Shown here: in pieces, positions 25,415 through 59,210 of the stretch
Layout of the letters: each line of letters begins with the position of its first letter
Numbering within the stretch: the stretch's first letter is position 1
From: Dioscorea cayenensis subsp. rotundata
Lineage: Eukaryota > Streptophyta > Magnoliopsida > Dioscoreales > Dioscoreaceae
Direction: 5' to 3'
NCBI RefSeq assembly: GCF_009730915.1
Contig: NC_052476.1
Location: 20,999,257-21,063,256 of the forward strand
Length of the DNA: 64,000 nucleotides
Program-made: the position numbers and the translations under genes
The notes under the pieces: model-generated
The model's database searches: none
What the model saw: only the letters and a program-made list of their open reading frames with translations
Told to the model about the DNA's origin: nothing

Positions 25415-26414
25415 NNNNNNNNNNNNNNNNNNNNNNNNNNNNNNNNNNNNNNNNNNNNNNNNNNNNNNNNNNNNNNNNNNNNNNNNNNNNNNNNNNNNNN
25501 NNNNNNNNNNNNNNNNNNNNNNNNNNNNNNNNNNNNNNNNNNNNNNNNNNNNNNNNNNNNNNNNNNNNNNNNNNNNNNNNNNNNNNNNNNNNNNNNNNNN
25601 NNNNNNNNNNNNNNNNNNNNNNNNNNNNNNNNNNNNNNNNNNNNNNNNNNNNNNNNNNNNNNNNNNNNNNNNNNNNNNNNNNNNNNNNNNNNNNNNNNNN
25701 NNNNNNNNNNNNNNNNNNNNNNNNNNNNNNNNNNNNNNNNNNNNNNNNNNNNNNNNNNNNNNNNNNNNNNNNNNNNNNNNNNNNNNNNNNNNNNNNNNNN
25801 NNNNNNNNNNNNNNNNNNNNNNNNNNNNNNNNNNNNNNNNNNNNNNNNNNNNNNNNNNNNNNNNNNNNNNNNNNNNNNNNNNNNNNNNNNNNNNNNNNNN
25901 NNNNNNNNNNNNNNNNNNNNNNNNNNNNNNNNNNNNNNNNNNNNNNNNNNNNNNNNNNNNNNNNNNNNNNNNNNNNNNNNNNNNNNNNNNNNNNNNNNNN
26001 NNNNNNNNNNNNNNNNNNNNNNNNNNNNNNNNNNNNNNNNNNNNNNNNNNNNNNNNNNNNNNNNNNNNNNNNNNNNNNNNNNNNNNNNNNNNNNNNNNNN
26101 NNNNNNNNNNNNNNNNNNNNNNNNNNNNNNNNNNNNNNNNNNNNNNNNNNNNNNNNNNNNNNNNNNNNNNNNNNNNNNNNNNNNNNNNNNNNNNNNNNNN
26201 NNNNNNNNNNNNNNNNNNNNNNNNNNNNNNNNNNNNNNNNNNNNNNNNNNNNNNNNNNNNNNNNNNNNNNNNNNNNNNNNNNNNNNNNNNNNNNNNNNNN
26301 NNNNNNNNNNNNNNNNNNNNNNNNNNNNNNNNNNNNNNNNNNNNNNNNNNNNNNNNNNNNNNNNNNNNNNNNNNNNNNNNNNNNNNNNNNNNNNNNNNNN
26401 NNNNNNNNNNNNNN
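25415..26414. other. Scaffold gap (1000 N)
   Basis: Exactly 1000 unknown bases, the usual placeholder for a gap of unknown size. Its left flank is single-copy LPD upstream sequence; its right flank is already inside the 1.54-kb array. The left boundary of the array, and possibly many more units, are therefore hidden here. Any open frame running through the Ns is meaningless. Confidence 0.99.
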
Positions 26415-29400
26415 CCCTTATTTTAATATTTTTAGTGTCGGTTTCTCCCTGTGTTATTAAAAAGTTAAATTCAAACTTCTATAAATACAAAAATTATAAT
26501 AAAAGTTTATGTGGGGTTTAGTACGATGGATTAATAATTATTAAAAGTAAAACGGCTGTTTCTGCAATCGCTCGATGATGATTCTTTATCAATAAATTGT
26601 TTGAATTTGCTAAATTGTTAATCCGCTAATTTAGATATTTTTGCAATTTCTGTAGAATTGTTTAATTTCTTGGTTAATCCTCTTGTTCAAATATCAAAGT
26701 TATACATCCTCACCCAATTTGATATCTTAGATTCGTATTGTCTTTTTTGTCAATGAATTGGGAGGGAAGAAGTCGAACTGATGGTGGTGGATTTTCCCTA
26801 TTTGAAACTTCCATCACTACTATATATATCCAAACTATGGCCTGTGGATTGATTCAAGGAATGTGATTCCAATTTTTCATAATTTTCGAAGTCTCCCGAA
26901 AGGTATTATCTCATTTTCAGGTTTCAAGTAAATACAAATCAAAATTCCACGTTGTATATATAAATCTACTCCTTGGAAGTGTTTGATTTATATTTGCTAC
27001 TCCATTTTATGTGTGTGCTTGGCGGCTGGAGGGACCTGGAGGGGCTGAGGGGCTGAGGGATCGAGGACCGGTTCCACGATTGGTAGGGGCCGAGTAAAAC
27101 TACAATAAATTTTATATTTCTAATAAATTTTATATTAGCTTTGCTTTTAAGTGTTATTTAGTGTATTTCTATTTTAATGTGGTGATTCAATATTTATTTA
27201 TATAAAATACTTGCTTAAATTTTTAAAAATCATGTTTTTATTTTTATTCTTTTCTTAATATTTGATTTTTTTAATTATATATAGTTCTTAAAAAATTATA
27301 TTATTTTAAAAATTATTTGACCCCGGTTCAACCTGCAACAACCCTCAATTTCCCCATCAGCTACTCCCTTCCGGGGTCGACGCCCGGTCCGCTGGCCCTT
27401 AAACCTTTGATTTTTTTTCTTTTTGCAAAGCTGTGTGGATTTCCTCCCATGCTAATTAAAAAAAAAAGTTAACTCAAACTTCAAGCAAATAATGAAATTA
27501 TGGGTAAAAAGCTATGTTTAGGCATCGGCGGATTAATAATTATTAAAAGTAAATCATTACTAAGTAATCTCACTAAAAATTTCAAAATTTCAAAATAATT
27601 GGTTGTCACAAGTTAGAAAATACCGCTTATAAGAGTGTTCTGAGAGAAACTGAATTTCAACGCTTCTCCTTCCTCTTCCCTTAAGCTTCCACTCGCCAAG
27701 GCGCTGGTGAAAGCACTCATCCACGCCGCCACCGGAGCCGCCGCCACCATCGGAGGGACGCCGTTGGTCTCCCTTACCAATAAGGGCATGGAGGCGCTTA
27801 TGGTCCTCCACCCATTTGGAGGCTGCCTATCTCCTCATCAAAAGCGAAATATGTTGTAGGTTGTTATAAATAACAATTACAAAAATTGCTTTAACGACAA
27901 AACTAACCTCGAAACAACCTCAAGTATTTTAATATTTTTAGTGTTTATTTCTCCTTAAAGTAATAAAAAGTTAATCTAAACTTCTAGCAACATAAAAAAT
28001 TATAATAAAAGTTTATAAGTTTATAATGATGGATTATAATTAAAAGTAACCATTGTCACAATCGTTTGAGCGCATGATTCTTTCATTTAAATTGTTTGAA
28101 TCAAGCAATTGTTAGAACCGCTAATTTAGAGATTTTTGCACCCCTGTAGAATTGTTTCAATTTTGTTAATCCTCTTGTTCAAATATCAAAGTTGGTGCTG
28201 ATCTCACTCAATTTGACATCTTAGATTCGTATTGTCTTTGTCAATGGGGAATTGGGAGTGAAGAAGTCGAATTGATGGTGGATTTTCTCCCCGTATTTGA
28301 AACTTCCATCACTACTATATATATCCAAATCATGGCCTGTGATTATCTAAGAATGTGATTCCACTCTTTTCAATTTTCTCGAAGTCTCCTGGAAAGGGTG
28401 TATTTTATCTCAATTCTTTTGTGTTTCCAAGTAAATATAAATCTGAAAACTTAATGTTGTACATATAAAATCTTACCTATGTTTGATTTATATTTGCTAC
28501 CCATTTTATGTGTGTGTGCTTGGCGGCCGGAGGGACTGGAGAGGGGCCGAGGGCCTGAGGGATCGTGGAGGGATCGGTTCCTACCGCCGATTGGTAGGGG
28601 TCGAGGGCAAAATGTCATAATAAATTTTATACTTCCCAATAAATTTTATATTAGTTTATTTTGTTATTTAGTGTATTTCTATTTTAATGTGGGTGTGATC
28701 TAATATTTATTTATATAAATACTTGCTTAAATTTTAGGAAACTGCGTTTTTATTTTTTATTCTTCAACATTTGATTTTTTTGAATTATATATAACTAAAA
28801 TTATTATTTTTAAAATTATTGACCCCTTGGCTCAACCTGGGCTTGAACCTCGACTGATCATACCCTTCTCCGGTCGATTACCATCTGCGTCTGAAAACTC
28901 TCGATTTTTTTCTTTTGCAAAGTTGTGTGATTCCCATATGCTAATTAAAAAAAAGTTAAATCTAAATTTCTACAAATACGAAAATTATAATAAAAGTTTA
29001 TAAGTTTAGCATCGATATGGATTAATAATTATTAAAAGTAAATCATTGTCATAATCACCAAATTTCAAAATTTCAAAATAATCATTGTCATAAGTTAGGA
29101 AAATACTCATTTATATAAGAGTGTCTTGAGAGAAATCAAATTTCAAATCGCCTCCTTCCTCTCTTCCCCAAGCTTCCACCTCGCCATGGCCAGTACTCTC
29201 TATCCACGCTGAGCCGCCGCCACCATCGGAGGGACGCCATGGTCTCTCTCCTCATGGTCAAGGAATGGAGGCGCTTATGGTCCTTCTTCCTCCCACCTAA
29301 TACTCTGAGGTCACCATCTCCCTCATCAAAAGCGTAAAATATGTTTGTAGAGTTGTTATAAACAACAATTACAAAATTAAGCTTTAACGATAAACCAACC

Positions 29401-32400
29401 CACTCGACAAACCTCAAGTATTTTAATATTTTAGTGTTTATTTCGCTGCAGTGCTAATAGTTAAATCTAAACTTCTACAAATGCTACATTATAATAAAAG
29501 CTTTACAAGTTTAGTACTGATGGCTAATAATTATTAAAAGGGAAATCTGGCTGTCACAATCGCCTCGACGATGGATCTTTCATTTAACAATTGCTGTTTG
29601 AATTTCAAGCCAATTGTTAATCAATAATTTAGATATTTTTGCAATTTCTCGTAGAATTGTTTCTGCTAATTTTGAAAGTTAATCCTCTTGTTCAAATATC
29701 AAAAGTTACATGATCCTCACTCTTAATTTGATATCTTAGATTCGATTGTCTTTTGTCAACAATGAATTGGGAGTGGAAGAAGCTGGAAATCGATGGTGTG
29801 GGATTTTCTCTCCTTGGTTTGAAACTTCCGAATCACCACTATATATATCCAAATCATGGCTCAGGGATTGATCCGCCAACAAAGATTCCAATTCTTTTCA
29901 ATCCTCTTGAAGTCTCCCCGAGAGCATTATCTCATTCTGTGTTTCCGTTAAGTAAATACAAATCTGAAAACCCAGTCGTTGTGTGTACATATAAAATCTT
30001 ACTCGATTGTGTGATTTTTATATTTGCTGACCCATCTTTATGTGTGCCAGTGTACTGGAGGGATCGGAGGGCCTGGAGGGCTGAGGGACCGAGGGACCGG
30101 GTTCACCGCCGACTGACTGTAGCCGAGGGCAAATGTCACACACAATTTTATACTTCCTAACAAATTTTATATTAGTTTATTTTTACGTTATTTACAGATT
30201 ACCTAATGTGGTGTGATTCAATACTCATTTATATAAAATATTACTTGCTTAAATAGAAATCATGTATTTTCTTTATTCTCTTAATATTTGATTTAATATA
30301 TAAATCATTACATTAGCTTTAAAATTATTGGACGGGTTCAAACTCCCGGCTTGAGACCCTTGACCTCGACCATGACCCTTCTCCTCCCGGTCGATGCCCG
30401 CCCAAGGGTTCTGGGAAAACCTTTGATCTCTATCGCGGTGCTGTGTGATTTCTCCCACATGCTAATTAGTTAAACTCAAACTTTCTACAACACGTAAAAT
30501 TATAATAAAAAGTTTACAAGTTTAGCACCGGCGGATTTTGGCTGAATTGATAAAAAGTAAATCATTGTCACACTTTCACCAAAATTTCAAAATTCTCAAA
30601 AATAATCATTGTCACGTTAGAAACATCGCCTATATAAGAGTGTCTCTCGAGAGAAATCGAAATTTCGTAAATCAGCTTCTCTCCTTCCTCTCTCTTCCCA
30701 AGCTTCCACCCGCCATGCGCGCGAGTAGCGTCTATCCTCACGCACGCCACCGAGCCGCCGCCACCATCGGAGGGACGCCGCTGGTCTCTCTCACACGAAC
30801 AAGGGCATGGAGGCGCCATGGGTCCTTCTCCCCACCCATTTGGAGGTCACTCATCTCTCCTCATCAAAAGCGAAAATAAGTTGTAGGTTGCTCGGTATAC
30901 AACAATTAGCAAAAATTGCCGTACGACATAAACCAACCTCGACAACTCCTCGTTAGTGAATATTTTAGTGTTTATTTCTCCCTGCAAAGCTAATAGTTAA
31001 ATCTCAAACTTGCTAAGCAAATACAGCAAAATCATAATAAAAAGTTTACAAGTTTAGCATTGATGGATTGATAACGTTTATTAAAAGTGTAAATTCATTG
31101 CATCCAATTCGCCGATGCATGATTCTTTTCAGTCGACAATTAAGTTTGAATTTCGCCAAACGCATCCGTCAATTTAGATATTTTAGCAAATTTCTCGTAG
31201 AATTGTTTCCACCCCTGAAAGTAACTTTCCCGTTCAAAATATCAAAGCCAGTGTCGATCTCTACCTCAATTTGATATCTTAGATCTCACATTGTCTTTCG
31301 TTTCAACGAACTAGGAGGAATAGTTTCGAACTGATGCGTGGTGGGATTTTCTCCTTATTTGAAACTCGATCCGATCACACTATATATATATCCAAATCAT
31401 GGCCTCGTGATCGATCCATGAACAAAGATTCCAATCTTTTCAATTTCTCTCTGGAAAGTCTCGGAAAGGCATTATCCTCTACCCTTTGTGTTTCGTTAGA
31501 AGTACATACAATCTGAAAATCTCAATGCTGTACATATATAAAATCTTACCATGTTTGACGGGAGGCTTCATACTCCATTTTATGTGTAAAAGCCATGACG
31601 TCGGAGGGACCTGGAGGGGCCGAGGGCCGAGGACCTGAGGGACCCGGGTTCCCAATGTCGATAGTAATGAGGCAAAACAAGGTCACAATAAATTTTATAC
31701 TTCTTAACAAATTTAGAGTATTAGTTTATTTTTATGTTATTTAAAGTGTATTTCCTATCTTTTAATGTGGGTGTGATTCAATAATATTTATTTTATATAA
31801 AATACTAAGCTACATCTTTTAGAAATCATGCTTTTATATTCCTTTCAATATTTGATTTTCACGTATATATAACTAAAAATTATATTATTTTAAAAATTGA
31901 TGCACCCCGCAACCTGCACGCAAACCCTTTGGACCCCCTCGCTCACATCCTTCTCCGTCGATGCCCGGTCCGCTGCACTCGAACCTTGATCGGCAGTTGT
32001 GTGATTTCTCATTACATGCCAATCAGTTACAACTAAACTCACAAACAGAAAATTATAATAAAAAGTTTACAAGTTTTAGCATCGATGGATTAATAATTAT
32101 TAAAAGTGAAACTCATTGTCACAATCAACAAAAATTTCAAAATTTTCGTAAAATAATCATTGTCAAGGTTAGAACATCATCACTAGTAGAGTGTCTTGAG
32201 AGAAATCGGAAATTTCAACGCCTCCCTTCCCTTCCCAAGCTTCCACTCACGTCGGGCGCGAGAAAGTACTCCTCATCCACGCCGCCACCGAGCCGTGCAC
32301 TACCCGAGGGACGCTGTCCTGGTCTTCCTCACGAACAAGGCATGGAGGCGTTATGGTCCTTCTCCCACCCATTTTGGAGGGCGTCACCATCTCTCCTCAT

Positions 32401-35312
32401 CAAAAGCGTAAAATATGTTGTAGGTTGTTATAAACAACAATTACAAAAATTGCTTTAACGACAAAACCAACCTCGAAAACAACCCCTGTTATTTTAATAT
32501 TTTTTAGTGTTTATTTCTCCCACGTGTGCTAATAAAAAAAAGTTAAATTCAAACTTCTACAAATACAAAAATTATAATAAAAAGTTTACAAGTTTAGCAT
32601 TGATGGATTAATAATTATTAAAAGTAAATCATTGTCACAATCGCCTGATGCATGATCTTTTTCATTTAACAATTGTTTGAATTTCAAGCAATTGTTAATC
32701 ATGCTAATTTAGATATTTTTCGCAATTTCGGTAGAATTGTTTCAATTTTTGTTAATCCTCTTGTTCAAATATCAAAAGTCACATGATCTCACTCAATTTG
32801 ATATCTTAGATTCGATTGTCTTTTTGTCAATGAATTGGGAGTGGAAGAAGTCGAATTGATGGTGGTGGGATTTTCTCCCTTATTTGAAAACTTCGATCAC
32901 CACTATATATATCCAAATCATGGCTCAGGATTGATTCATGAACAGCATCTCCAATTTTTCAATTTTCTTGGAAGTCTCCTGGGAAAGGTATTATCTCATT
33001 CTTTGTGTTTCGTTAAGTAAATACAAATCGAAAACCTAATGTCTAGTACTATAAAATCTTACTCATGTTTGATTTATATTTGCTACTCCATTTTATGTGT
33101 GTGTGTGCTTGGCGACTGAGGGACTGGAGGGGCCTGAGGGGCTGGAGGGATCGAGGGACGGGTTCCACGTGCCGATTAGGTAGTCGAGGGCAAAAATGTC
33201 ACAATAAATTTTATACTTCTCAATAAATTTTATATTAGTTTATTTTTATGTTATTTAGTGTATTTCTCATTTTTAATGTGGTGTGATTCAATATTTATTT
33301 ATATAAAATACTTGCTTAAATTTTTAGAAATCATGTTTTTATTTTTTATTCTTCAATATTTTGATTTTTAATTATATATAACTAAAAAAATTATATTATT
33401 TTTAAAAATTATTGACCCCTGCTCAACCCTGCTTGAACCCTCGACTGACTGCTACCCTTCTCCCAGGTCGATGCGCTCCAGTCCGTCTGAAAACCTTGAT
33501 CTTTTGCGTGTTGTGTGATTTCTCCCACATGCTAATTAAAAGTTAAATTCAAACTTCTACAAATACGAAAATTATAATAAAAAGTTTACAAGTTTAGCAT
33601 CGATGGATTAATAATTATTAAAAGTAAATCATTGTCACAATCACCAAAATTTCAAAATTTCAAAATAATCATTGTCACAAGTTAGAAAATACCGCTTATA
33701 TAAGAGTGTCTTGAGAGAAATCGAAATTTCAAATCGCCTCCCTTCCTCTCTCCCAAGCTTCCACCTCGCCATGGGCGCGAGAAAGCACCTCATCCACGCC
33801 GCCACTGGAGTCCGCCGCCACCATCGGAGGGGACGCTGCTGGTCTCTCCTCACGAACAAGGGCATGGAGGCGCTATGGTCCTTCTCCCACCCATTTGGAG
33901 GTCACCATCTCTCCCTCATCAAAAGCGTAAAATATGTTGTAGGTTGTTATAAACAACAATTACAAAAATTGCTTTAACGACAAAACCAACCTCGAAAACA
34001 ACCCCTGTTATTTTAATATTTTTTAGTGTTTATTTCTCCCCCGTGTGCTAATAAAAAAAAGTTAAATTCAAACTTCTACAAATACAAAAATTATAATAAA
34101 AAGTTTACAAGTTTAGCATTGATGGATTAATAATTATTAAAAGTAAATCATTGTCACAATCGCCTGATGCATGATCTTTCATTTAACAATTGTTTGAATT
34201 TCAAGCAATTGTTAATCTGTCAATTTAGATATTTTTGCAATTTCTGGTAGAATTGTTTCAATTTTGTTAATCCTCTTGTTCAAATATCAAAGTTACATGA
34301 TCTCACTCAATTTGATATCTTAGATTCGATTGTCTTTTGTCAATGAATTGGGAGTGGAAGAAGCTGGAATTGATGGTGGTGGGATTTTCTCCCTTATTTG
34401 AAACTTCTGATCACCACTATATATATCCAAATCATGGCTCAGGATTGATTCATGAACAGCATCTCCAATTTTTCAATTTTCTTGGAAGTCTCCTGGGAAA
34501 GGTATTATCTCATTCTTTGTGTTTCCTGTTAAGTAAATACAAATCTGAAAACCTAATGTTGTACATATAAAATCTTACTCATGTTTGATTTATATTTGCT
34601 ACTCCATTTTATGTGTGTGTGTGCTTGGCGGCTGGAGGGACTGGAGGGGCTGGAGGGGCCGGAGGGATCTGAGGGACCGTTCACGCCCGATTAGTGGTAG
34701 GTGAGGGCAAAATGTCACAATAAATTTTATACTTCTCAATAAATTTTATATTAGTTTATTTTTTTATGTTATTTAGTGTATTTCTCATTTTTTTAATGTG
34801 GTGTGATTCAATATTTATTTATATAAAAATACTTGCTTAAATTTTTTTAGAAATCATGTTTTTTTATTTTTTTATTCTTCAATATTTGATTTTTTTTAAT
34901 TATATATAACTAAAAATTATATTATTTTTAAAAATTATTGACCCCGGTTCAACCCAGTTGAACCCCTTGACCCCTGACCGCTACCCTTCTCCGGGTCGAT
35001 GCCCGGTCCAGCGTCTGAAAACCTTGATTTTTCTTTTTGCGGGTTGTGTGATTTCTCCCACATGCTAATTAAAAAGTTAAATTCAAACTTCTACAAATAC
35101 GAAAAATTATAATAAAAAAAGTTTACAAGTTTAGCATCGATGGATTAATAATTATTAAAAAGTAAATCATTGTCACAATCACCAAAAATTTCAAAAATTT
35201 CAAAAATAATCATTGTCACAAGTTAGAAAATACTGCCTATATAAGAGTGTCTTGAGAGAAATCGAAATTTCAAATCGCTCTCCCTTCCTCTTCCCGAAGC
35301 TTCCACCTCGCC

Positions 35313-35516
35313 ATGGGCGCGAGAAAGTACCTCATCCACGCCGCCGCTGGAGCTGCCGCCACCATCGGAGGGACGTCGTTGGTCTTCCTCACGAACAAGG
35401 GCATGGAGGCGCTATGGTCCTTCTCCCACCCATTTGGAGGTCACCATCTCTCCCTCATCAAAAGCGTAAAATATGTTGTAGGTTGTTATAAACAACAATT
35501 ACAAAAATTGCTTTAA
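35313..35516 (+). CDS. Short ORF of the array unit, intact copy 1
   Basis: A 67-aa frame starting MGARKYLIHAAAGAAATIGG. Residues 1-45 are close to exon 1 of the minus-strand gene at 45.8 kb (MSARKYLIQDAAGVAATVGG), including a Gly/Ala-rich stretch followed by TSLVFLTNKGMEAL that could be one membrane helix. After FSHPFGG the frame runs into non-homologous sequence (HHLSLIKSVKYVVGC), so the C-terminus is new or untranslated. A TATATAAG box lies about 75 bp upstream, and a pyrimidine-rich leader (CTCTCCCTTCCTCTTCCC) precedes the ATG. Function is unknown, and expression cannot be judged from sequence. Confidence 0.45.
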   Translation: MGARKYLIHAAAGAAATIGGTSLVFLTNKGMEALWSFSHPFGGHHLSLIKSVKYVVGCYKQQLQKLL

Positions 35517-38500
35517 CGACAAAACCAACCTCGAAAACAACCCCTGTTATTTTAATATTTTTTAGTGTTTATTTCTCCCCCGTGTGCTAATAAAAAAAAG
35601 TTAAATTCAAACTTCTACAAATACAAAAATTATAATAAAAAGTTTACAAGTTTAGCATTGATGGATTAATAATTATTAAAAGTAAATCATTGTCACAATC
35701 GCCTGATGCATGATCTTTCATTTAACAATTGTTTGAATTTCAAGCAATTGTTAATCTGTCAATTTAGATATTTTTGCAATTTCTGGTAGAATTGTTTCAA
35801 TTTTGTTAATCCTCTTGTTCAAATATCAAAGTTACATGATCTCACTCAATTTGATATCTTAGATTCGATTGTCTTTTTGTCAATGAATTGGGAGTGGAAG
35901 AAGTCTGGAATTGATGGTGGTGGGATTTTTCTCCCTTATTTGAAACTTCGATCACCACTATATATATCCAAATCATGGCTCGAGATTGATTCATGAACGA
36001 GCATCTCCAATTTTTTTCAATTTTCTTGGAAGTCTCACGGGAAAGGTATTATCTCATTCTTTGTGTTTCTGTTAAGTAAATACAAATCGAAAAACCTAAT
36101 GTTGTACATATAAAAATCTTACTCATGTTTGATTTATATTTGCTACTCCATTTTATGTGTGTGTGTGCTTGGCTGGAGGGACTGGAGGGACTGGAGGGGC
36201 TGGAGGGACTGGAGGGACTCGGTTCCATGACCCGATTAGTAGGGAGTGAGGGCAAAATGTCACAATAAATTTTATACTTCTCAATAAATTTTATATTAGT
36301 TTATTTTTTTATGTTATTTAGTGTATTTCTCATTTTTTTAATGTGGTGTGATTCAATATTTATTTATATAAAAATACTTGCTTAAATTTTTTTAGAAATC
36401 ATGTTTTTTTATTTTTTTTATTCTTCAATATTTGATTTTTTTAATTATATATAACTAAAAAAATTATATTATTTTTTTAAAAAAATTATTGACCCCGGTT
36501 CAACCCGAGTTGAACCCCTTGACCCTCGACAGCTACCCTTCTCGGGTCGATGCCCGGTCCGCGTCTGAAAACCTTGATTTTTTTTTTTTTGCAGGTTGTG
36601 TGATTTCTCCCACATGCTAATTAAAAAAAAAAAAGTTAAATTCAAACTTCTACAAATACGAAAAATTATAATAAAAAAAGTTTACAAGTTTAGCATCGAT
36701 GGATTAATAATTATTAAAAAGTAAATCATTGTCACAATCACCAAAAATTTCAAAAATTTCAAAAATAATCATTGTCACAAGTTAGAAAAATACGCCTATA
36801 TAAGAGTGTCTTGAGAGAAATCGAAAATTTCAAATCGCTCTCCCTTCCTCTTCCCGAAGCTTCCACCTCGCCATGGGCGCGAAAAGTACCTCATCCACGC
36901 CCGCCCGCTGGAGCCGCCGCCACCATCGGAGGGGACGTCGTTGGTCTTCCTCACGAACAAGGGCATGGAGGCGCTATGGTCCTTCTCCCACCCATTTGGA
37001 GGTCACCATCTCTCCCTCATCAAAAGCGTAAAATATGTTGTAGGTTGTTATAAACAACAATTACAAAAAAATTGCTTTAACGACAAAAACCAACCTCGAA
37101 AAACAACCCCTCGTTATTTTTAATATTTTTTTTAGTGTTTATTTCTCCCCGTGTGCTAATAAAAAAAGTTAAATTCAAACTTCTACAAATACAAAAAAAT
37201 TATAATAAAAAAGTTTACAAGTTTAGCATTGATGGATTAATAATTATTAAAAAGTAAATCATTGTCACAATCGCTTTCGATGCATGATCTTTTCATTTAA
37301 CAATTGTTTTGAATTTCAAGCAATTGTTAATCATCAATTTAGATATTTTTTTGCAATTTCGGTAGAATTGTTTCAATTTTTGTTAATCCTCTTGTTCAAA
37401 TATCAAAGTTACATGATCTCACTCAATTTGATATCTTAGATTCGATTGTCTTTTTGTCAATGAATTGGGAGTGGAAGAAAGTCTGGAATTGATGGTGGTG
37501 GGATTTTCTCCCTTATTTGAAACTTCTGATCACCACTATATATATCCAAATCATGGCTCAGGATTGATTCATGAACGACATCTCCAATTTTTTTCAATTT
37601 TTCTTGGAAGTCTCCCGGGAAAGGTATTATCTCATTCTTTGTGTTTCTGTTAAGTAAATACAAATCGAAAAACCTAATGTTGTACATATAAAAATCTTAC
37701 TCATGTTTGATTTATATTTGCTACTCCATTTTATGTGTGTGTGTGCTTGGCTCTGGAGGGACCTGGAGGGGCTGGAGGGGCTGGAGGGACTGGAGGGGAC
37801 CGGGTTCACGGCCGATTGGTAGAGTCGAGGGCAAAATGTCACAATAAATTTTATACTTCTCAATAAATTTTATATTAGTTTATTTTTTTATGTTATTTAG
37901 TGTATTTCTCATTTTTAATGTGGTGTGATTCAATATTTATTTATATAAAATACTTGCTTAAATTTTTAGAAATCATGTTTTTATTTTTTATTCTTCAATA
38001 TTTGATTTTTTTTAATTATATATAACTAAAAATTATATTATTTTTAAAAATTATTGACCCCGGTTCAACCCAGTTGAACCCCTTGACCCCTGACCGCTAC
38101 CCTTCTCCGGGTCGATGCCCGGTCCGCGTCTGAAAACCTTGATTTTTTTTTCTTTTGCAGGTTGTGTGATTTCTCCCACATGCTAATTAAAAAAAAAAAA
38201 GTTAAATTCAAACTTCTACAAATACGAAAATTATAATAAAAAGTTTACAAGTTTAGCATCGATGGATTAATAATTATTAAAAGTAAATCATTGTCACAAT
38301 CACCAAAAATTTCAAAAATTTCAAAAATAATCATTGTCACAAGTTAGAAAAATACGCCTATATAAGAGTGTCTTGAGAGAAATCGAAAATTTCAAATCGC
38401 TCTCCCTTCCTCTTCCCGAAGCTTCCACCTCGCCATGGGCGCGAGAGTACCTCATCCACGCCGCCCGGAGCTGCCGCCACCATCGGAGGGGACGTCGTTG

Positions 38501-39709
38501 GTCTTCCTCACGAACAAGGGCATGGAGGCGCTATGGTCCTTCTCCCACCCATTTGGAGGTCACCATCTCTCCCTCATCAAAAAGCGTAAAAATATGTTGT
38601 AGGTTGTTATAAACAACAATTACAAAAAAATTGCTTTTAACGACAAAAACCAACCTCGAAAAACAACCCCTCGTTATTTTAATATTTTTTTAGTGTTTAT
38701 TTCTCCCCGTGTGCTAATAAAAAAAGTTAAATTCAAACTTCTACAAATACAAAAAAATTATAATAAAAAAAGTTTACAAGTTTAGCATTGATGGATTAAT
38801 AATTATTAAAAAGTAAATCATTGTCACAATCGCTCGATGCATGATCTTTTCATTTAACAATTGTTTGAATTTCAAGCAATTGTTAATCATCAATTTAGAT
38901 ATTTTTTTGCAATTTCGGTAGAATTGTTTCAATTTTTGTTAATCCTCTTGTTCAAATATCAAAGTTACATGATCTCACTCAATTTGATATCTTAGATTCG
39001 ATTGTCTTTTGTCAATGAATTGGGAGTGGAAGAAGCTGGAATTGATGGTGGTGGGATTTTCTCCCTTATTTGAAACTTCTGATCACCACTATATATATCC
39101 AAATCATGGCTCAGGATTGATTCATGAACAGCATCTCCAATTTTTCAATTTTCTTGGAAGTCTCCTGGGAAAGGTATTATCTCATTCTTTGTGTTTCCTG
39201 TTAAGTAAATACAAATCTGAAAACCTAATGTTGTACATATAAAATCTTACTCATGTTTGATTTATATTTGCTACTCCATTTTATGTGTGTGTGTGCTTGG
39301 CGGCTGGAGGGACTGGAGGGGCTGGAGGGGCTGGAGGGACTGGTTCCGCCGGCCGATTGGTAGGGGGCTGAGGGCAAAATGTCACAATAAATTTTATACT
39401 TCTCAATAAATTTTATATTAGTTTATTTTTATGTTATTTAGTGTATTTCTCATTTTTAATGTGGTGTGATTCAATATTTATTTATATAAAATACTTGCTT
39501 AAATTTTTAGAAATCATGTTTTTATTTTTTATTCTTCAATATTTGATTTTTTTTAATTATATATAACTAAAAATTATATTATTTTTAAAAATTATTGACC
39601 CCGGTTCAACCCAGTTGAACCCCTTGACCCCTGACCGCTACCCTTCTCCGGGTCGATGCCCGGTCCGCGTCTGAAAACCTTGATTTTTTTTTCTTTTGCA
39701 GGTTGTGTG

Positions 39710-39842
39710 ATTTCTCCCACATGCTAATTAAAAAAAAAAAAGTTAAATTCAAACTTCTACAAATACGAAAATTATAATAAAAAGTTTACAAGTTTAGCAT
39801 CGATGGATTAATAATTATTAAAAGTAAATCATTGTCACAATC
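39710..39842 (+). repeat. Direct repeat A of the array unit (reference copy)
   Basis: 133 bp running from ATTTCTCCCACATGCTAATT to CATTGTCACAATC. It matches direct repeat B (40231-40363) almost base for base apart from CACATGC versus CCGTGTGC and homopolymer lengths. Together they bracket the promoter-plus-exon block. They lack the primer-binding site and polypurine tract that would suggest a TRIM or LTR element. Confidence 0.8.
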
Positions 39843-39896
39843 ACCAAAATTTCAAAATTTCAAAATAATCATTGTCACAAGTTAGAAAATACTGCC

Positions 39897-39904
39897 TATA
39901 TAAG
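39897..39904 (+). promoter_or_regulatory. TATA box of the array unit (reference copy)
   Basis: TATATAAG in the context ACTGCCTATATAAGAGTGTC, 68 bp upstream of the short-exon ATG. The same box occurs in nearly all units (e.g. 35239, 36798, 38360, 41439, 42980, 44519). The related gene at 45.8 kb has a weaker CCTATATTACGAG at the same place. The spacing fits a plant pol II core promoter with a short leader. Confidence 0.6.
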
Positions 39905-39971
39905 AGTGTCTTGAGAGAAATCGAAATTTCAAATCGCTCTCCCTTCCTCTTCCCGAAGCTTCCACCTCGCC

Positions 39972-40175
39972 ATGGGCGCGAGAAAGTACCTCATCCACGC
40001 CGCCGCTGGAGCTGCCGCCACCATCGGAGGGACGTCGTTGGTCTTCCTCACGAACAAGGGCATGGAGGCGCTATGGTCCTTCTCCCACCCATTTGGAGGT
40101 CACCATCTCTCCCTCATCAAAAGCGTAAAATATGTTGTAGGTTGTTATAAACAACAATTACAAAAATTGCTTTAA
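39972..40175 (+). CDS. Short ORF of the array unit, intact copy 2
   Basis: Encodes the same 67 residues as the copies at 35313 and 41514. TATATAAG lies at 39897-39904, 68 bp upstream of the ATG, with AAGCTTCCACCTCGCC directly before it. The block is flanked by the 133-bp direct repeats 39710-39842 and 40231-40363. The neighbouring units carry the same block with small indels that break the frame. Confidence 0.45.
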   Translation: MGARKYLIHAAAGAAATIGGTSLVFLTNKGMEALWSFSHPFGGHHLSLIKSVKYVVGCYKQQLQKLL

Positions 40176-40230
40176 CGACAAAACCAACCTCGAAAACAAC
40201 CCCTGTTATTTTAATATTTTTTTAGTGTTT

Positions 40231-40363
40231 ATTTCTCCCCGTGTGCTAATAAAAAAAGTTAAATTCAAACTTCTACAAATACAAAAAAATTATAATAAAA
40301 AAAGTTTACAAGTTTAGCATTGATGGATTAATAATTATTAAAAAGTAAATCATTGTCACAATC
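40231..40363 (+). repeat. Direct repeat B of the array unit (reference copy)
   Basis: Second 133-bp copy, downstream of the short exon. After it the unit continues with CGATGCATGATCTTTCATTT and then an AT-rich stretch leading to the HECT-derived segment. The A/B pair is present in every full unit. Confidence 0.8.
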
Positions 40364-40494
40364 GCTCGATGCATGATCTTTCATTTAACAATTGTTTGAA
40401 TTTCAAGCAATTGTTAATCATCAATTTAGATATTTTTTTGCAATTTCGGTAGAATTGTTTCAATTTTTGTTAATCCTCTTGTTCAAATATCAAA

Positions 40495-40835
40495 GTTACA
40501 TGATCTCACTCAATTTGATATCTTAGATTCGATTGTCTTTTTGTCAATGAATTGGGAGTGGAAGAAAGTCTGGAATTGATGGTGGTGGGATTTTTCTCCC
40601 TTATTTGAAACTTCGATCACCACTATATATATCCAAATCATGGCTCGAGGATTGATTCATGAACAGACATCTCCAATTTTTTTCAATTTTTCTTGGAAGT
40701 CTCCGGGAAAGGTATTATCTCATTCTTTGTGTTTCTGTTAAGTAAATACAAATCTGAAAACCTAATGTTGTACATATAAAAATCTTACTCATGTTTGATT
40801 TATATTTGCTACTCCATTTTATGTGTGTGTGTGTG
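40495..40835 (+). pseudogene. UPL7-derived HECT segment of the array unit (reference copy)
   Basis: After the acceptor-like GATATCTTAG the sequence encodes SFVNELG, then VEEAGIDGGGIF, the start of the HECT domain in UPL7-type ligases. About 210 bp, including the next intron, are missing relative to the copy at 50.8-51.1 kb. It then resumes in another frame with ETSDHHYIYPNHGSG and LIHEQHLQFF, then LGSLLGK and a donor-like GTATTAT. Frame and amino acids on both sides of the deletion are best kept in the unit at 38162-39702. The catalytic Cys lobe of HECT is not present. This is a fragment and cannot be a working ligase. Confidence 0.8.
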
Positions 40836-40930
40836 CTGGCGGCTGGAGGGGACTGGAGGGGTCTGGAGGGGACTGGAGGGACCTGGGTTCCACGGCCGAT
40901 TGAGTAGGGGTGAGGGCAAAATGTCACAAT
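40836..40930 (-). repeat. Minisatellite with inverted intron/exon-2 junction (reference copy)
   Basis: On the + strand this reads GGCTGGAGGGGACTGGAGGGG repeated with 9-11 bp periodicity, then a GGTTCC...CCGATT stretch and GAGGGCAAAATGTCACAAT. The same sequence at 45411-45491 forms the end of the intron and the first bases of exon 2 of the small minus-strand gene. Read in that direction the minisatellite is a CCCTCCAGT-type pyrimidine tract ending in the splice acceptor. Relative to the promoter/exon block, the piece is inverted in the array. Copy number of the 9-10 bp motif differs between units. Confidence 0.75.
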
Positions 40931-41225
40931 AAATTTTATACTTCTCAATAAATTTTATATTAGTTTATTTTTATGTTATTTAGTGTATTTCTCATTTTTA
41001 ATGTGGTGTGATTCAATATTTATTTATATAAAATACTTGCTTAAATTTTTAGAAATCATGTTTTTATTTTTTATTCTTCAATATTTGATTTTTTTTAATT
41101 ATATATAACTAAAAATTATATTATTTTTAAAAATTATTGACCCCGGTTCAACCCAGTTGAACCCCTTGACCCCTGACCGCTACCCTTCTCCGGGTCGATG
41201 CCCGGTCCGCGTCTGAAAACCTTGA
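40931..41225 (+). mobile_element. MITE half within the array unit (reference copy)
   Basis: Starts AATTTTATACTTCTCAATAA and ends GTCTGAAAACCTTGAT. It matches the right half of the element at 9365-9920 (TATTAGTTTATTTTTATG, AAATACTTGCTTAAATTTTT, ATTTTTAATTATATATAAC, GGGTCGATGCC). It also carries a TTGACCCCGGTTCAACCC stretch missing from that copy. No left terminal repeat is present in the unit, so the transposon end is captured, not whole. Confidence 0.7.
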
Positions 41226-41513
41226 TTTTTTTTTCTTTTGCAGGTTGTGTGATTTCTCCCACATGCTAATTAAAAAAAAAAAAGTTAAATTCAAACTTCT
41301 ACAAATACGAAAATTATAATAAAAAGTTTACAAGTTTAGCATCGATGGATTAATAATTATTAAAAGTAAATCATTGTCACAATCACCAAAATTTCAAAAT
41401 TTCAAAATAATCATTGTCACAAGTTAGAAAATACTGCCTATATAAGAGTGTCTTGAGAGAAATCGAAATTTCAAATCGCTCTCCCTTCCTCTTCCCGAAG
41501 CTTCCACCTCGCC

Positions 41514-41717
41514 ATGGGCGCGAGAAAGTACCTCATCCACGCCGCCGCTGGAGCTGCCGCCACCATCGGAGGGACGTCGTTGGTCTTCCTCACGAACAAG
41601 GGCATGGAGGCGCTATGGTCCTTCTCCCACCCATTTGGAGGTCACCATCTCTCCCTCATCAAAAGCGTAAAATATGTTGTAGGTTGTTATAAACAACAAT
41701 TACAAAAATTGCTTTAA
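41514..41717 (+). CDS. Short ORF of the array unit, intact copy 3
   Basis: Third copy with an unbroken 67-residue frame, identical at protein level to the copies at 35313 and 39972. Adjacent units 39703-41243 and 41244-42788 are almost the same over the exon block, so this pair looks recently duplicated or recently homogenised. It has the same upstream TATATAAG box and leader. Confidence 0.45.
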   Translation: MGARKYLIHAAAGAAATIGGTSLVFLTNKGMEALWSFSHPFGGHHLSLIKSVKYVVGCYKQQLQKLL

Positions 41718-44700
41718 CGACAAAACCAACCTCGAAAACAACCCCTGTTATTTTAATATTTTTTAGTGTTTATTTCTCCCCCGTGTGCTAATAAAAAAAA
41801 GTTAAATTCAAACTTCTACAAATACAAAAATTATAATAAAAAGTTTACAAGTTTAGCATTGATGGATTAATAATTATTAAAAGTAAATCATTGTCACAAT
41901 CGCCTGATGCATGATCTTTCATTTAACAATTGTTTGAATTTCAAGCAATTGTTAATCATCAATTTAGATATTTTTTTGCAATTTCGGTAGAATTGTTTCA
42001 ATTTTTGTTAATCCTCTTGTTCAAATATCAAAGTTACATGATCTCACTCAATTTGATATCTTAGATTCGATTGTCTTTTTGTCAATGAATTGGGAGTGGA
42101 AGAAGTCGGAATTGATGGTGGTGGGATTTTTCTCCCTTATTTGAAACTTCGATCACCACTATATATATCCAAATCATGGCTCAGGATTGATTCATGAACA
42201 AAGCATCTCCAATTTTTTTCAATTTTTCTTGGAAGTCTCCCGGGAAAGGTATTATCTCATTCTTTGTGTTTCCTGTTAAGTAAATACAAATCTGAAAACC
42301 TAATGTTGTACATATAAAATCTTACTCATGTTTGATTTATATTTGCTACTCCATTTTATGTGTGTGTGTGCTTGGCGGCTGGAGGGACTGGAGGGGCTGG
42401 AGGGGCTGGAGGGACTGGAGGGACTGGTTCCGCCGGCCGATTGGTAGGGGGCTGAGGGCAAAATGTCACAATAAATTTTATACTTCTCAATAAATTTTAT
42501 ATTAGTTTATTTTTATGTTATTTAGTGTATTTCTCATTTTTAATGTGGTGTGATTCAATATTTATTTATATAAAATACTTGCTTAAATTTTTAGAAATCA
42601 TGTTTTTATTTTTTATTCTTCAATATTTGATTTTTTTTAATTATATATAACTAAAAATTATATTATTTTTAAAAATTATTGACCCCGGTTCAACCCAGTT
42701 GAACCCCTTGACCCCTGACCGCTACCCTTCTCCGGGTCGATGCCCGGTCCGCGTCTGAAAACCTTGATTTTTTTTCTTTTTTGCGGGGTTGTGTGATTTC
42801 TCCCACATGCTAATTAAAAAGTTAAATTCAAACTTCTACAAATACGAAAAATTATAATAAAAAAAGTTTACAAGTTTAGCATCGATGGATTAATAATTAT
42901 TAAAAAGTAAATCATTGTCACAATCACCAAAATTTCAAAATTTCAAAATAATCATTGTCACAAGTTAGAAAATACTGCCTATATAAGAGTGTCTTGAGAG
43001 AAATCAAAATTTCAAATCGCTCTCCCTTCCTCTTCCCGAAGCTTCCACCTCGCCATGGGCGCGAGAGTACCTCATCCACGCCGCGCTGGAGCTGCCGCCA
43101 CCATCGGAGGGGACGTCGTTGGTCTTCCTCACGAACAAGGGCATGGAGGCGCTATGGTCCTTCTCCCACCCATTTGGAGGTCACCATCTCTCCCTCATCA
43201 AAAAGCGTAAAAATATGTTGTAGGTTGTTATAAACAACAATTACAAAAAAATTGCTTTAACGACAAAACCAACCTCGAAAAACAACCCCCTGTTATTTTT
43301 AATATTTTTTTTAGTGTTTATTTCTCCCCGTGTGCTAATAAAAAAAGTTAAATTCAAACTTCTACAAATACAAAAAAATTATAATAAAAAAAGTTTACAA
43401 GTTTAGCATTGATGGATTAATAATTATTAAAAGTAAATCATTGTCACAATCGCCTGATGCATGATCTTTCATTTAACAATTGTTTGAATTTCAAGCAATT
43501 GTTAATCTGTCAATTTAGATATTTTTGCAATTTCTGGTAGAATTGTTTCAATTTTGTTAATCCTCTTGTTCAAATATCAAAGTTACATGATCTCACTCAA
43601 TTTGATATCTTAGATTCGATTGTCTTTTTGTCAATGAATTGGGAGTGGAAGAAAGTCTGGAATTGATGGTGGTGGGATTTTTCTCCCTTATTTGAAACTT
43701 CTGATCACCACTATATATATCCAAATCATGGCTCAGGATTGATTCATGAACAGCATCTCCAATTTTTCAATTTTCTTGGAAGTCTCCCAGGGAAAGGTAT
43801 TATCTCATTCTTTGTGTTTCTGTTAAGTAAATACAAATCGAAAAACCTAATGTTGTACATATAAAAATCTTACTCATGTTTGATTTATATTTGCTACTCC
43901 ATTTTATGTGTGTGTGTGCTTGGCGGTGGAGGGACCTGGAGGGGTCGGAGGGACTGGTTCCGACGGGCCGATTAGTAGAGGGTGAGGGCAAAATGTCACA
44001 ATAAATTTTACACTTCTCAATAAATTTTATATTAGTTTATTTTTATGTTATTTAGTGTATTTCTCATTTTTAATGTGGTGTGATTCAATATTTATTTATA
44101 TAAAATACTTGCTTAAATTTTTAAAAATCATGTTTTTATTTTTTATTCTTCAATATTTGATTTTTTTAATTATATATAACTAAAAATTATATCATTTTTA
44201 ATAAAAATTATTGACCCCGGTTCAACCCAGTTGAACCCCTTGACCCCTGACCGCTACCCTTCTCCGGGTCGATGCCCGGTCCGCGTCTGAAAACCTTGAT
44301 TTTTTTTTCTTTTGCAGGTTGTGTGATTTCTCCCACATGCTAATTAAAAAAAAAAAAGTTAAATTCAAACTTCTACAAATACGAAAAATTATAATAAAAA
44401 AAGTTTACAAGTTTAGCATCGATGGATTAATAATTATTAAAAAGTAAATCATTGTCACAATCACCAAAAATTTCAAAAATTTCAAAATAATCATTGTCAC
44501 AAGTTAGAAAAATACGCCTATATAAGAGTGTCTTGAGAGAAATCGAAATTTCAAATCGCTCTCCTTCCTCTTCCCGAAGCTTCCACCTCGCCATGGGCGC
44601 GAGAAAGTACCTCATCCACGCCCGCCCTGGAGCTCGCCGCCACCATCGGAGGGGACGTCGTTGGTCTTCCTCACGAACAAGGGCATGGAGGCGCTATGGT

Positions 44701-44857
44701 CCTTCTCCCACCCATTTGGAGGTCACCATCTCTCCCTCATCAAAAGCGTAAAATATGTTGTAGGTTGTTATAAACAACAATTACAAAAATTGCTTTAACG
44801 ACAAAACCAACCTCGAAAACAACCCCTGTTGTTTTAATATTTTTTTAGTGTTTATAT

Positions 44858-45380
44858 TGGAAAGGAAAATTTTAAAAAAAACTTGTGATTTTAAATTGTT
44901 GAAGGTGGGATTGTATTTTTTTTTCGTTTGCAGGTTGTGTGATTTCTCCCGCATGCTAATAAAAAAAAGTTAAATTCAGTAATTCATATAAAATACTTCG
45001 TATTCGATAAGCAACGTGGCGTGATGTAAACATATATTATTTTTTACTTTTTGACTTAATATAAATTATTACATAAATTATTATTTTTAGATATATTCAT
45101 AATGAGGGAAAGAAGTGTCATTTATTGAATTAAATGAAAAATAACAAAGCCTTTTCAAAAAAAATTTATAAATGACACGCAAAATCCACCATTTTTCTCC
45201 CGATTCGAATCCAACCACTAAAAACTAGAACAACAACACCAAACACCCACTAAAACATCAAATAAACAAAACTAAAATATCACATAAATTAAAAACAAAT
45301 ACTGAATTACCAGATTAGAAGTTAGAAAATAAAAAAAAACCTAGCAAATCAATAGCCTTAGGGCCTGCAGCAGTTGAAGC
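44858..45380. other. Right flank of the array with a unit remnant
   Basis: The array breaks off inside the block after the short exon (TTTTTTTAGTGTTTATATTGG). At about 44915-44977 a short remnant of the unit reappears (TTTGCAGGTTGTGTGATTTC, then AAAGTTAAATTCA). The rest to 45380 is AT-rich and single-copy within this window. No gene is seen. Confidence 0.6.
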
Positions 45381-45806
45381 TTAGAGGCCATCCTTCTCCT
45401 TTTCTGCTTGGCGACTGGAGGGACTGGAGGGGCTGGAGGGACTGGTTCCGCCGGCCGATTGGTAGGGGGGCTGAGGGCAAAATGTCACAATTGAACCAAT
45501 CAAGTTTAGTCAATTGAATAGATTAAGTTTAGTAAAAGAAAATTAATTAGTTTGAACTTGTAGTTGGTATAAAGTTGTAGATTGTGATTTGTTAGTTTGA
45601 TTTTGTTTTAAAACAAGGTGTCAGTTTCTAGTTAAATGAGAATTTTAACATGGGTACCAGATTTACCTCGATAGAAGGGGTAGGTGTGACACATAGTGCT
45701 GGAAGAGGGCCTCCATGCCTTTGTTTGTGAGGAAGACCAAAGCCGTCCCTCCGACAGTGGCGGCAACTCCAGCAGCGTCCTGGATGAGATATTTTCTAGC
45801 GCTCAT
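45381..45806 (-). CDS. Small two-exon gene related to the array short exon
   Basis: Exon 1 is 45667-45806 (ATG at 45806: MSARKYLIQDAAGVAATVGG, then TALVFLTNKGMEALFQHYV), with donor GAG/GTAAAT. Exon 2 is 45381-45414, after acceptor CCCTCCAG/TCGCC, and gives RQAEKEKDGL and stop TAA at 45381. The 57-residue product has one likely membrane helix with Gly/Ala spacing and a short charged tail. I do not recognise the family. The leader from about 45890 and exon 1 are clearly related to the promoter/exon block of the array, and the intron end and exon 2 start to its inverted minisatellite piece. It may be the source gene or another daughter copy. The intron is 252 nt with canonical ends. Confidence 0.55.
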
Positions 45807-46627
45807 GGCGAGGTGGAAGCTTCGGGAAAGAAGAGCAAGAGGGAGGGAGAGAATGATTTGAAATTTTGAATTCTCAGGAACACTCGTAATATAGGCAGCC
45901 AAAAAAATGGGGGAGAGAACTATCCAAGTGGCATCGGGAAAATCCTGTTACACCGTTAGATGAATCTAACGGTTGATGGGTAATTAAAATATTTATGAAC
46001 AGTATAAGTGTTTGTAATTTTTTCAAATTGTGTTTTTTTTTATGGTCTTGCGAAATTGTGTTTTTTTATGGCTGCTTAATTTGATGAGAGGCATGGAGCG
46101 GGTGTATAAAACTGCTTCTTTGGCTCACCATAATAGTTGGGTAATTTCATATTTCCAGCTACAAATATCATGACATGTAGGTATTTATTACATCTATATT
46201 ATTGTTGTTGTTCAATGGCTTGTGTTATGTTATGTTTTTGTTAATGAGGAAAATAAAAAAATTCTCTGACATTTTTGTTGGCTCTAACCATGAAAGTCAT
46301 GCACTGAAGTTGTTCTTTGAAAATCATTCTAGAATTACACTTGCATTCTTTGATATGATAATTGAAAATTCAAATGAATGCTAGCTAGTTGACGGTATGT
46401 TGCATCATATATGTCAATAATATTAGTCAAGTACTTATATTAGACTATTTTTAGCATGTATGTTAATATATTGTCACATGGATTAGCTAACATAGGTTAG
46501 AATCCTCTGCTGTAATTTCAATAAATTCTCAATTCTCGAATGTGGGCTAAAAAAGCCCTTTAATATGAGAGAATTCATCTTCATTTTTTCTATCAGCTTG
46601 CATCTGATGAGTCTTAAATTACTGCAG
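45807..46627. other. Intergenic upstream of the small gene
   Basis: Holds the leader and probable promoter of the minus-strand small gene (CCTATATTACGAG near 45890) and then AT-rich sequence with no gene. Just before 46628, TTACTGCAG is the splice acceptor of the importin-alpha fragment; its earlier exons are missing. Confidence 0.5.
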
Positions 46628-47510
46628 TTTATCATCAATCAGAATGCACTTCCGTGTCTTCTAAACCTTCTGACGCACAATCATAAGAAAAGCATCAAGA
46701 AGGAAGCTTGCTGGACTATTTCAAACATCACAGCTGGAAATAAGGAGCAAATACAGGTACCCTATATAATCATTCTTTTGACCAATGTTTATAGTTTGTA
46801 CCTATAATGCCAACTTTTTTAAGATGACCGTCAAGTTGAGTTTTCACATAGTTCATAGTCCAAATTAGGCACTTAGAAGTTTTTTACCACCATGAAATAG
46901 TGCGATGAAAACACTGGAAGCTTATATTTTTCTAATTTTGAGAGTTAATCTTATTGCTGTTGGCAAATACTTCAGATTACCTTTGATATTTATTGCTTTC
47001 AAACATGATCCCCTGTAGATAGGCGTCGATCATCTTTGGTGTCAACTTTGTATCTCTGATTCTGCTTGATAACTATACTCTTCCATCTTTCTGTCAGGCT
47101 GTAATTACTGCTGATATCATTGGTCCATTAGTACATCTTCTCCAAACTGCTGAGTTTGACATCAAGAAAGAGGCTGCCTGGGCCATCTCAAATGCTACTT
47201 CAGGTGGCACCCATGATCAAATAAAGTAATGTTGAATGCGCATCACGTTTATTCTACCATTAAGAATTGTATTTAAGCCCAAATTTAGCCTATAAGCTGT
47301 ATTCAAGTCTAAGGCCTTTTCATTAACATGGTTTATCATGGCAGGTTTTTAGTCAGTCAGGGTTGCATCAAGCCCTTGTGTGATCTCCTAGTGTGCCCAG
47401 ACCCGAGAATTGTCACAGTTTGCTTGGAAGGGCTGGAAAACATCCTGAAGGTTGGTGAAGCTGAGAAGAATGCAGGCACCACTGGAGGCGTGAATCTCTA
47501 TGCTGCTTGA
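46628..47510 (+). pseudogene. Importin subunit alpha, fragment (late ARM repeats)
   Basis: Three exons with normal GT-AG introns: 46628-46756 ([20 protein letters not shown], then [20 protein letters not shown]), 47098-47225 ([20 protein letters not shown], then [19 protein letters not shown]) and 47345-47510 ([20 protein letters not shown], then [14 protein letters not shown]). These are the last ARM repeats of the nuclear import adaptor, which binds classical nuclear localisation signals. The N-terminal importin-beta binding domain and first ARM repeats are absent. The frame stops at GGVNLYAA, before the acidic C-terminus the family normally has. The introns are kept, so this is a DNA-level fragment, not a retrocopy. 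Confidence 0.85.
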
Positions 47511-47749
47511 TATAGGCAAATTACATTTTACAGTTAAGATTATTCTATGAATTTTGTGGAAATCCCAATTAATGAAAACTTATGAAATTATTCAATTACT
47601 CAATATCATATAGGACATATATAGATTTCTCTGACTTTATATTGATATCTGTTAACTGGCCATGATAAATGCATGACTATCCTGCAGCAGCAATTCTATT
47701 AGAGGATATTTTTTTCTGATTACGCTTGTTGGTTGCCGCTTTTGTTTAG

Positions 47750-51139: not shown

Positions 51140-51263
51140 GTAATATTATCTCATTCTTTGTGTGTTCCTGTTAAGTAAATACAAATCTGAAAACCTAATG
51201 CTGTACATATAAAATCTTAGTCATGTTTGATTTATATTTGCTAGCTACTCCATTTTATGTGCG
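51140..51263 (+). other. UPL7 intron piece shared with the array units
   Basis: From the donor (GGGAAAGGTAAT) to CCATTTTATGTG this intron sequence is found in every array unit (AATACAAATCTGAAAACCTA, TTTGATTTATATTTGCTA). Similarity stops where the array switches to the minisatellite, at TGTGTGTG. That marks one breakpoint of the segment captured by the unit. Confidence 0.75.
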
Positions 51264-58991: not shown

Positions 58992-59210
58992 TTGCTCGAG
59001 TTCTGTTTGTCCACCGGCTCATCATTTTTCGCCAGCGCTTCTATTTATCTTGTTCTGTTGTAAACTATCAAATGATTGAGATTCTGAAAACCCTAATTTG
59101 ACAGATCCTCAATAAAACTATGCCTTGCTTTGTGTCCTTTTATGTTCTCTTTCCGTATTCTCAATGGCTTCATTCTGAAATTCATACTGAATCAATGTTC
59201 ATGCTCTATT

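Follow-up and report, generated by a model that had tools for sequence, protein, structure and literature searches.

A tandem array of mosaic units, probably a satellite born from genes, in a 64,000-nucleotide window of Dioscorea cayenensis subsp. rotundata

Introduction

Tandem repeats with kilobase-sized units are known from the rye B chromosome, where the units of E3900 (3.9 kb) and D1100 (1.1 kb) seem to have been assembled from varied fragments, including mobile elements (PMC6210368). Here we describe a tandem array in a stretch of 64,000 nucleotides from Dioscorea cayenensis subsp. rotundata (contig NC_052476.1; hereafter, the window), whose units of ~1.54 kb join pieces of a HECT gene, pieces of a small-gene family, and half of a miniature inverted-repeat transposable element (MITE). 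We regard this array as probably a complex satellite that arose from genes where it now lies, was amplified in tandem, and is by now probably silent, rather than as a young gene family. It shares with E3900 and D1100 the kilobase-sized tandem units of mixed fragments (PMC6210368), but relatives of its gene pieces lie within 7 kb. Furthermore, the rye repeats are reported to be transcribed and to carry euchromatic marks, whereas the present array bears signs suggestive of methylation. The kind of repeat is already known from rye, and what the locus adds is that its gene pieces have relatives less than 7 kb away, all of them, so far as the window extends, to the right.

Other described systems overlap with the array in part. 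A MITE also took part in the maize B repeat CL-1, although the passages on CL-1 in PMC6210368 name a retrotransposon and a MITE and no gene exons. In MITE-derived satellites such as Xstir of Xenopus, a MITE likewise contributes to a tandem repeat (PMC12628747), whereas the MITE half makes up less than one-fifth of our unit, the rest being mostly gene-derived or of unknown origin. The tandem units of Su(Ste) in Drosophila join a promoter, a gene part, and a transposon piece (PMC7874207), as do ours, but they are found in an animal, are Y-linked, and are credited in that account with a demonstrated PIWI-interacting RNA function. At the Arabidopsis FOLT2 locus, a rearrangement holds functional and truncated gene copies, and a paralogue is methylated in trans (PMC5257005); the relevant part of that paper describes no satellite-like mosaic array, and function was tested for FOLT2. 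Finally, gene fragments adjoin transposon sequence in Pack-type terminal inverted repeat (TIR) elements (PMC13317346), which differ from the array in that each of its units has a single terminus. Few satellites are traceable to their parent sequences, and nearby relatives would make it possible to place in time the joining of the pieces, the insertion of the transposon, and the amplification, and so their order.

Structure of the array and of its unit

Self-BLAST of the window places the array on the forward strand, with copies that run head-to-tail and in register at multiples of ~1.54 kb. Boundary anchors divide it into 12 complete units (u01 to u12) of 1494 to 1567 bp, spanning 26418 to 44828 and starting at 26418, 27924, 29418, 30953, 32489, 34008, 35547, 37114, 38674, 40206, 41748, and 43293, while a further start at 44829 opens a partial unit of which only the first 27 bp are present (44829 to 44855). 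An earlier note on this DNA had claimed at least 12 tandem mosaic copies of ~1.54 kb, and this count stands. Because a gap of 1000 N bases adjoins the array, its left end is unseen. Two readings of the array's edges were set aside: the gap-edge bases do not prove a preceding unit, since the unit start that we chose has only 3 bases before it, and the right flank past 44855 need not be the ancestral duplication junction, since the alignment fits a truncated 13th unit equally well.

25415 to 26414, unstranded: N gap of 1000 bases; unit sequence resumes 3 bp to its right
26418 to 44855, + strand: tandem array of 12 complete mosaic units plus 27 bp (self-BLAST, unit anchors)
26418 to 32320, unstranded: part of the array with raw-read quality, units 1 to 3 and most of unit 4
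34008 to 35546, + strand: unit u06, in which the HECT pieces and a 67-amino-acid open reading frame (ORF) read unbroken

As in a complex satellite, one unit is repeated head-to-tail, and this unit was drawn from unrelated sources (the HECT gene, the small-gene family, and the MITE). The earlier note had described each unit as a promoter plus exon, a HECT fragment, an inverted intron/exon-2 piece, and a transposon half; all four are borne out as sequence matches far beyond chance. The pieces follow one another in the order given below, in coordinates of the unit consensus and of u06.

Consensus 1 to 157 (u06 34008 to 34163), +: a1, first copy of an internal repeat, 94% to a2 over 119 columns
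Consensus 158 to 284: piece of unknown origin, with no relative in the window below E 0.1
Consensus 285 to 385 (u06 34290 to 34387), +: B1, HECT-gene exon piece (VNELGVEEAGIDGGGIF), 95% to 50745-50806
Consensus 386 to 622 (u06 34388 to 34622), +: B2, HECT exon and intron piece, 89% to 51030-51269
Consensus 623 to 722 (u06 34623 to 34720), -: C, intron end and proline-repeat exon 2 of the small gene, antisense; relative at 45405-45491
Consensus 723 to 1017 (u06 34721 to 35026), +: E, right half of the MITE with its right terminus; relative at 9706-9920
Consensus 1018 to 1184 (u06 35027 to 35183), +: a2, second copy of the internal repeat, upstream of D
Consensus 1233 to 1414 (u06 35233 to 35413), +: D, TATA box, leader, and exon 1 of a small-gene paralogue; 67-amino-acid ORF from 35313
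Consensus 1415 to 1547: tail

The internal duplication, which the earlier note did not mention, covers 119 bp (42-158 against 1067-1184, 94% identical). The HECT pieces are unbroken in u06 and u09, where they read VNELGVEEAGIDGGGIF and GSGLIHEQHLQFFNFLGSLLGK. The likeness of B2 to HECT ligases is weak but consistent, these enzymes making up 14 of the 15 entries in the PDB listing up to E 1 (best E, 0.019), and in Pfam B2 scores 12 bits for HECT against a cut-off of 23.9, the remaining HECT pieces giving nothing. We take the gene behind B1 and B2 to be UPL7, as the earlier note did, although no search returned this name. The array carries a 9-bp variable-number tandem repeat (VNTR; CTGGAGGGA, consensus 620-711) that is the proline repeat of the small gene in antisense. 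An Rfam search of 38600-46200 gave 0 matches up to E 0.1, a plasmid collection searched with one unit gave none, and a literature search on gene-derived tandem units or UPL7, judged by the titles and abstract openings listed, did not find the array reported.

Relatives of the unit in the window

The earlier note had also placed relatives of the gene pieces within 7 kb to the right, which is where we find them (45405-45898 and 50745-51269).

9366 to 9920, unstranded: MITE copy with imperfect terminal inverted repeats, relative of E (terminal repeat alignment)
44915 to 44978, + strand: a3, third internal-repeat copy, beyond the array and lacking the transposon half, 90% over 69 columns
45405 to 45491, - strand: small-gene relative of C, intron end and exon-2 start (sequence match)
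45667 to 45806, - strand: coding part of exon 1 of the small gene, with the putative exon 2 from 45470 downwards
50745 to 51269, + strand: decayed copy of the HECT gene, relative of B1 and B2 (sequence match)

Specifically, consensus 285-346 matches 50745-50806 (E 6e-21, 95%), with B1 also identical at 22/22 positions to 50801-50822, and consensus 385-623 matches 51030-51269 (E 6e-85). Consensus 622-657 and 650-723 match 45405-45491 (E 4e-11 and 1e-23), consensus 1233-1414 matches 45898-45706 in inverted orientation (E 8e-45), and consensus 735-916 and 974-1018 match 9706-9920 (E 8e-58 and 7e-8). Relatives of a1/a2, B1, B2, C, and D all lie to the right of the array, within 6.4 kb, and to its left the matches below E 1e-3 are confined to E (9706-9920 and 16180-16267). 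Exact 21-mers shared with units 5 to 12 or with the consensus show the same asymmetry: 117 fall in 44880-64000, all of them within 44927-51243, against 11 in 1-25414, every one inside the MITE copy. This copy is flanked by GATAATGT and AATAATTT, which, as read by eye, could represent a target duplication of 8 bp that has decayed.

How far the pieces have drifted from these relatives was counted on a single unit (u09, or u11 for C). Substitutions amount to 1/74 for B1, 7/222 (3.2%) for B2, and 1/83 (1.2%) for C, so that the B and C pieces stand 1.2 to 3.2% from copies 0.6 to 6.4 kb away, while E differs from the MITE copy at 19/215 positions and D from the copy at 45.7-45.9 kb at 20/174 (11.5%). 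Over 34 codons, D of u06 and exon 1 of the neighbour have proportions of synonymous and nonsynonymous differences (pS and pN) of 0.39 and 0.08. C and D both have relatives in one gene on the - strand, at 45.9-45.3 kb. This small gene (45341-45806; the end at 45341 was counted by hand) has a single frame across the exon join to a stop, giving 89 codons, and looks like an intact, uncharacterised two-exon gene; no Pfam family was found for it above the cut-off. Going by the match, C is derived from this gene or from a very recent copy of it. Since D is 11.5% off while the exon-2 region of the same gene is 1.2% off, the neighbour is a paralogue of D and not its donor, and D would derive from an old paralogue that was probably resident at the array. 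The units retain an out-of-frame stretch of 22 to 23 bp, flanked by two GAATTG repeats (22 bp in u06) and read through in u06 and u09, which is missing from the HECT copy at 50.7-51.3 kb; this copy is therefore not the intact parent of the HECT pieces but a sister of their source that has decayed. At E limits of 0.1 and 0.01, Pfam gave no HECT match between 46000 and 60401 on the + strand, although it also misses the short pieces of the units, and one frame of 50400-51399 had 0 matches in the PDB. Upstream of the HECT copy, 46625-47447 (+) encodes importin-alpha-like armadillo repeats, with chains of rice importin alpha-1A among the 60 matches listed.

The a3 copy sits 60 bp beyond the array, and its match starts within ~1 base of the end of the MITE in the unit, the MITE itself being absent. 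Together, the right-side relatives, the low divergence of B and C, and a3 without the MITE support assembly of the mosaic at its own locus. The earlier note had likewise proposed a local assembly, and its proposal is supported for the HECT and antisense exon-2 pieces (1.2 to 3.2%), and also by a3, but not for the promoter and exon-1 piece, which was not copied from 45.7-45.9 kb (11.5%, pS 0.39).

Apparent divergence between units

Edits were counted against a consensus built from units 6 to 12. At first glance, the array seems to hold an age gradient, with units 1 to 4 looking 20 to 30% diverged. We reject this reading given the abruptness of the change, the share of insertions and deletions (indels), and the few edits in common. 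The edit rate drops from 209/kb to 35/kb at one point, ~32,320, inside unit 4 (log-likelihood gain, 615), and 72% of the 1236 edits to the left of this point are indels. Units 1 to 4 hold 265 to 328 edits each, of which pairs have 38 to 57 in common. Counting substitutions only, they are 69 to 76% identical among themselves and each 75 to 84% identical to units 5 to 12, which, on these alignments, is a pattern of mostly private changes. Units 6 to 12, in turn, are near-identical as assembled, and 171 of their 326 edits are indels in homopolymers of at least 4.

The remaining edits are concentrated at particular motifs. Outside the VNTR, 43 of 87 non-homopolymer edits of units 6 to 12 lie at or beside CTG/CAG, which accounts for 5.1% of positions, and 17 of the 87 lie at CCG/CGG (4.5% of positions); in units 1 to 4 the CTG/CAG enrichment is weaker (116/923 edits). 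Variable sites outside the VNTR number 14/15 for CTG/CAG, against 3/48 for ATG/CAT, 3/78 for TTG/CAA, 9/49 for GAT/ATC, and 7/65 for TCA/TGA. Of 30 variant clusters, 14 fall at CTG/CAG, compared with a random mean of 1.9, and no run among 5000 permutations attained this number. The changes at CTG/CAG are mostly indels (CTG to CG, CAG to CGAG) and not C to T. Only 17 edits of units 6 to 12 outside the VNTR are substitutions; 14 of these are in CTG/CAG, CG, or homopolymer contexts, as judged by eye, and the other 3 are all in the edge unit u12 and absent from u06 to u11.

The unit-to-unit divergence therefore looks largely technical. In Listeria, nanopore errors that are driven by modification have been reported at GCAGC and GCTGG (PMC10687267), and a review of nanopore sequencing in plants cites methylation-caused base errors in Klebsiella (PMC7501810). 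By analogy, we infer that the reads were nanopore reads and that the array is methylated in the CHG context, as the concentration of errors at CTG/CAG suggests. Such concentrated errors could expose methylated repeats without extra data, and unpolished repeats can show false divergence gradients and false ORF breaks.

The same error-prone sites affect the coding potential of the units. A TATA box (TATATAAG) is read in 10 of the 12 units, the exceptions being u01 and u04. The 67-amino-acid frame is identical in u06, u09, and u10 and broken or different in the other nine, in the clean units mostly at GC-rich or CTG sites that vary between units, so that some of these breaks may not be real. By our reading, the ORF lacks exon 2 and runs into an apparent intron. 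The earlier note's statement that each unit carries a TATA box and a short ORF thus holds for most units as to the TATA box and for 3 of 12 as to an identical frame.

Origin of the array and alternative explanations

In the origin that we favour, pieces of the now-decayed HECT gene and of the small two-exon gene would have been joined locally, by end-joining or template switching, beside a resident small-gene paralogue that carried a MITE insertion. The mosaic would then have been amplified recently, by unequal exchange or by rolling-circle re-insertion, and the array subsequently silenced and CHG-methylated, with the TATA box and the 67-amino-acid frame as relics of the parent gene. From its sequence, we infer that the array behaves as a homogenising, silenced repeat and not as a gene set. 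Several points weigh against this interpretation. Within units 1 to 4, 23 to 36 edits per pair are in common yet absent from the clean units. In two other repeats of the window, taken as a control, 0/1 and 4/9 CTG/CAG sites are variable, although the sites are too few and one aligned "copy" is double. The Listeria account leaves the error-causing modification unidentified and gives counts of 5-methylcytosine that are alike in good and bad genomes (PMC10687267); the step from CTG/CAG errors to 5-methylcytosine is thus our own. Polishing with multi-mapped reads can inflate the likeness of copies, and because it may have homogenised them the recency of the amplification is soft. The donor of D is absent from the window, and since the comparison covers the window, dispersed copies of the whole unit may exist elsewhere.

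The same evidence can be held against other origins. A transposon that captured genes (a Pack-type TIR element or a Helitron), inserted here, and was then amplified would account for the half MITE with its right terminus that stands beside gene pieces inside every unit, and plant TIR elements are well documented to take up fragments of genes (PMC13317346). The left terminal repeat, however, was sought in the unit with a best score of 22, under the top five of 200 shuffles (29 to 33), and the right terminus is internal, followed by a2, while a3 has the same flank outside the array without a transposon. We consider such a capture unlikely and reject a Pack-type element as the unit, which has the right terminus only and not a TIR at both ends; Helitron ends were looked for by eye only. 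An assembler that multiplied one or a few units could have left the N gap at the array edge and the raw-quality left third, and the earlier note had named such an artefact as its refutation. The excess divergence of the left third does look like poor sequence, but the tandem arrangement does not: the raw-quality stretch holds nearly four tandem units with most edits unshared, as expected of reads that cross units, and u12 has its three private substitutions. This explanation is the least credible of all to us.

Nor do we expect the units to be genes. A nascent family, expressed from a TATA promoter and a short ORF in each unit, would fit the ten TATA boxes, the frame common to u06, u09, and u10, and the excess of pS over pN between D and the neighbouring exon 1. 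Yet this excess reflects the parent genes and not the array, the ORF has no exon 2 and, as assembled, reads broken or different in nine units, and the CTG/CAG footprint suggests methylation. We hold a gene family to be quite doubtful. Accordingly, of the earlier note's alternatives, an early gene family or a gene-born satellite, the latter stands and the former is weakened, insofar as the footprint is rightly read. Alternatively, the array may be a silencing locus, with small RNAs that would target in trans both the intact small gene and functional, UPL7-like HECT paralogues. Rearranged gene copies are reported to trans-silence in this way, FOLT2 acting on FOLT1 (PMC5257005) and Su(Ste) on Stellate (PMC7874207). 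Exact matches of guide length exist, 43 21-mers and 36 24-mers to the small gene at 45413-45491 (exon-2 start and intron end) and 60 21-mers to the HECT copy, but the 9-bp VNTR accounts for some of the match to exon 2. Moreover, where the unit matches itself in inverted orientation (up to E 1), only the internal repeats, the piece of unknown origin, and E are involved, and none of the coding pieces falls in a hairpin. A silencing locus seems improbable to us. It is tempting to speculate, though we think it unlikely, that the array would be a natural recent epigenetic suppressor, densely CHG-methylated, with small RNAs that silence the adjacent small gene and distant HECT paralogues; if true, the basecalling errors at CTG/CAG would be a methylation map preserved in the assembly.

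Other features of the window

Apart from the array, the window holds further repeats: a second tandem array at 56438-58173 with a period of ~157 bp and copies ~78 to 90% alike, a third tandem repeat at 62539-63437 with nested periods of ~134 to 450 bp, and a 131-bp repeat at 17641-17979 (2.6 copies, 91% matches). An exon resembling dihydrolipoyl dehydrogenase lies to the left of the N gap at 23990-24184 (-; best E, 1.8e-6) and, like the importin-alpha-like gene, points to plant DNA; a zinc-knuckle match to zf-CCHC_3 (64.5 bits) lies at 53697-53801 (+). Two tRNA genes, tRNA-Pro (cgg) at 10118-10190 and tRNA-Ala (agc) at 16514-16587, are both on the - strand.

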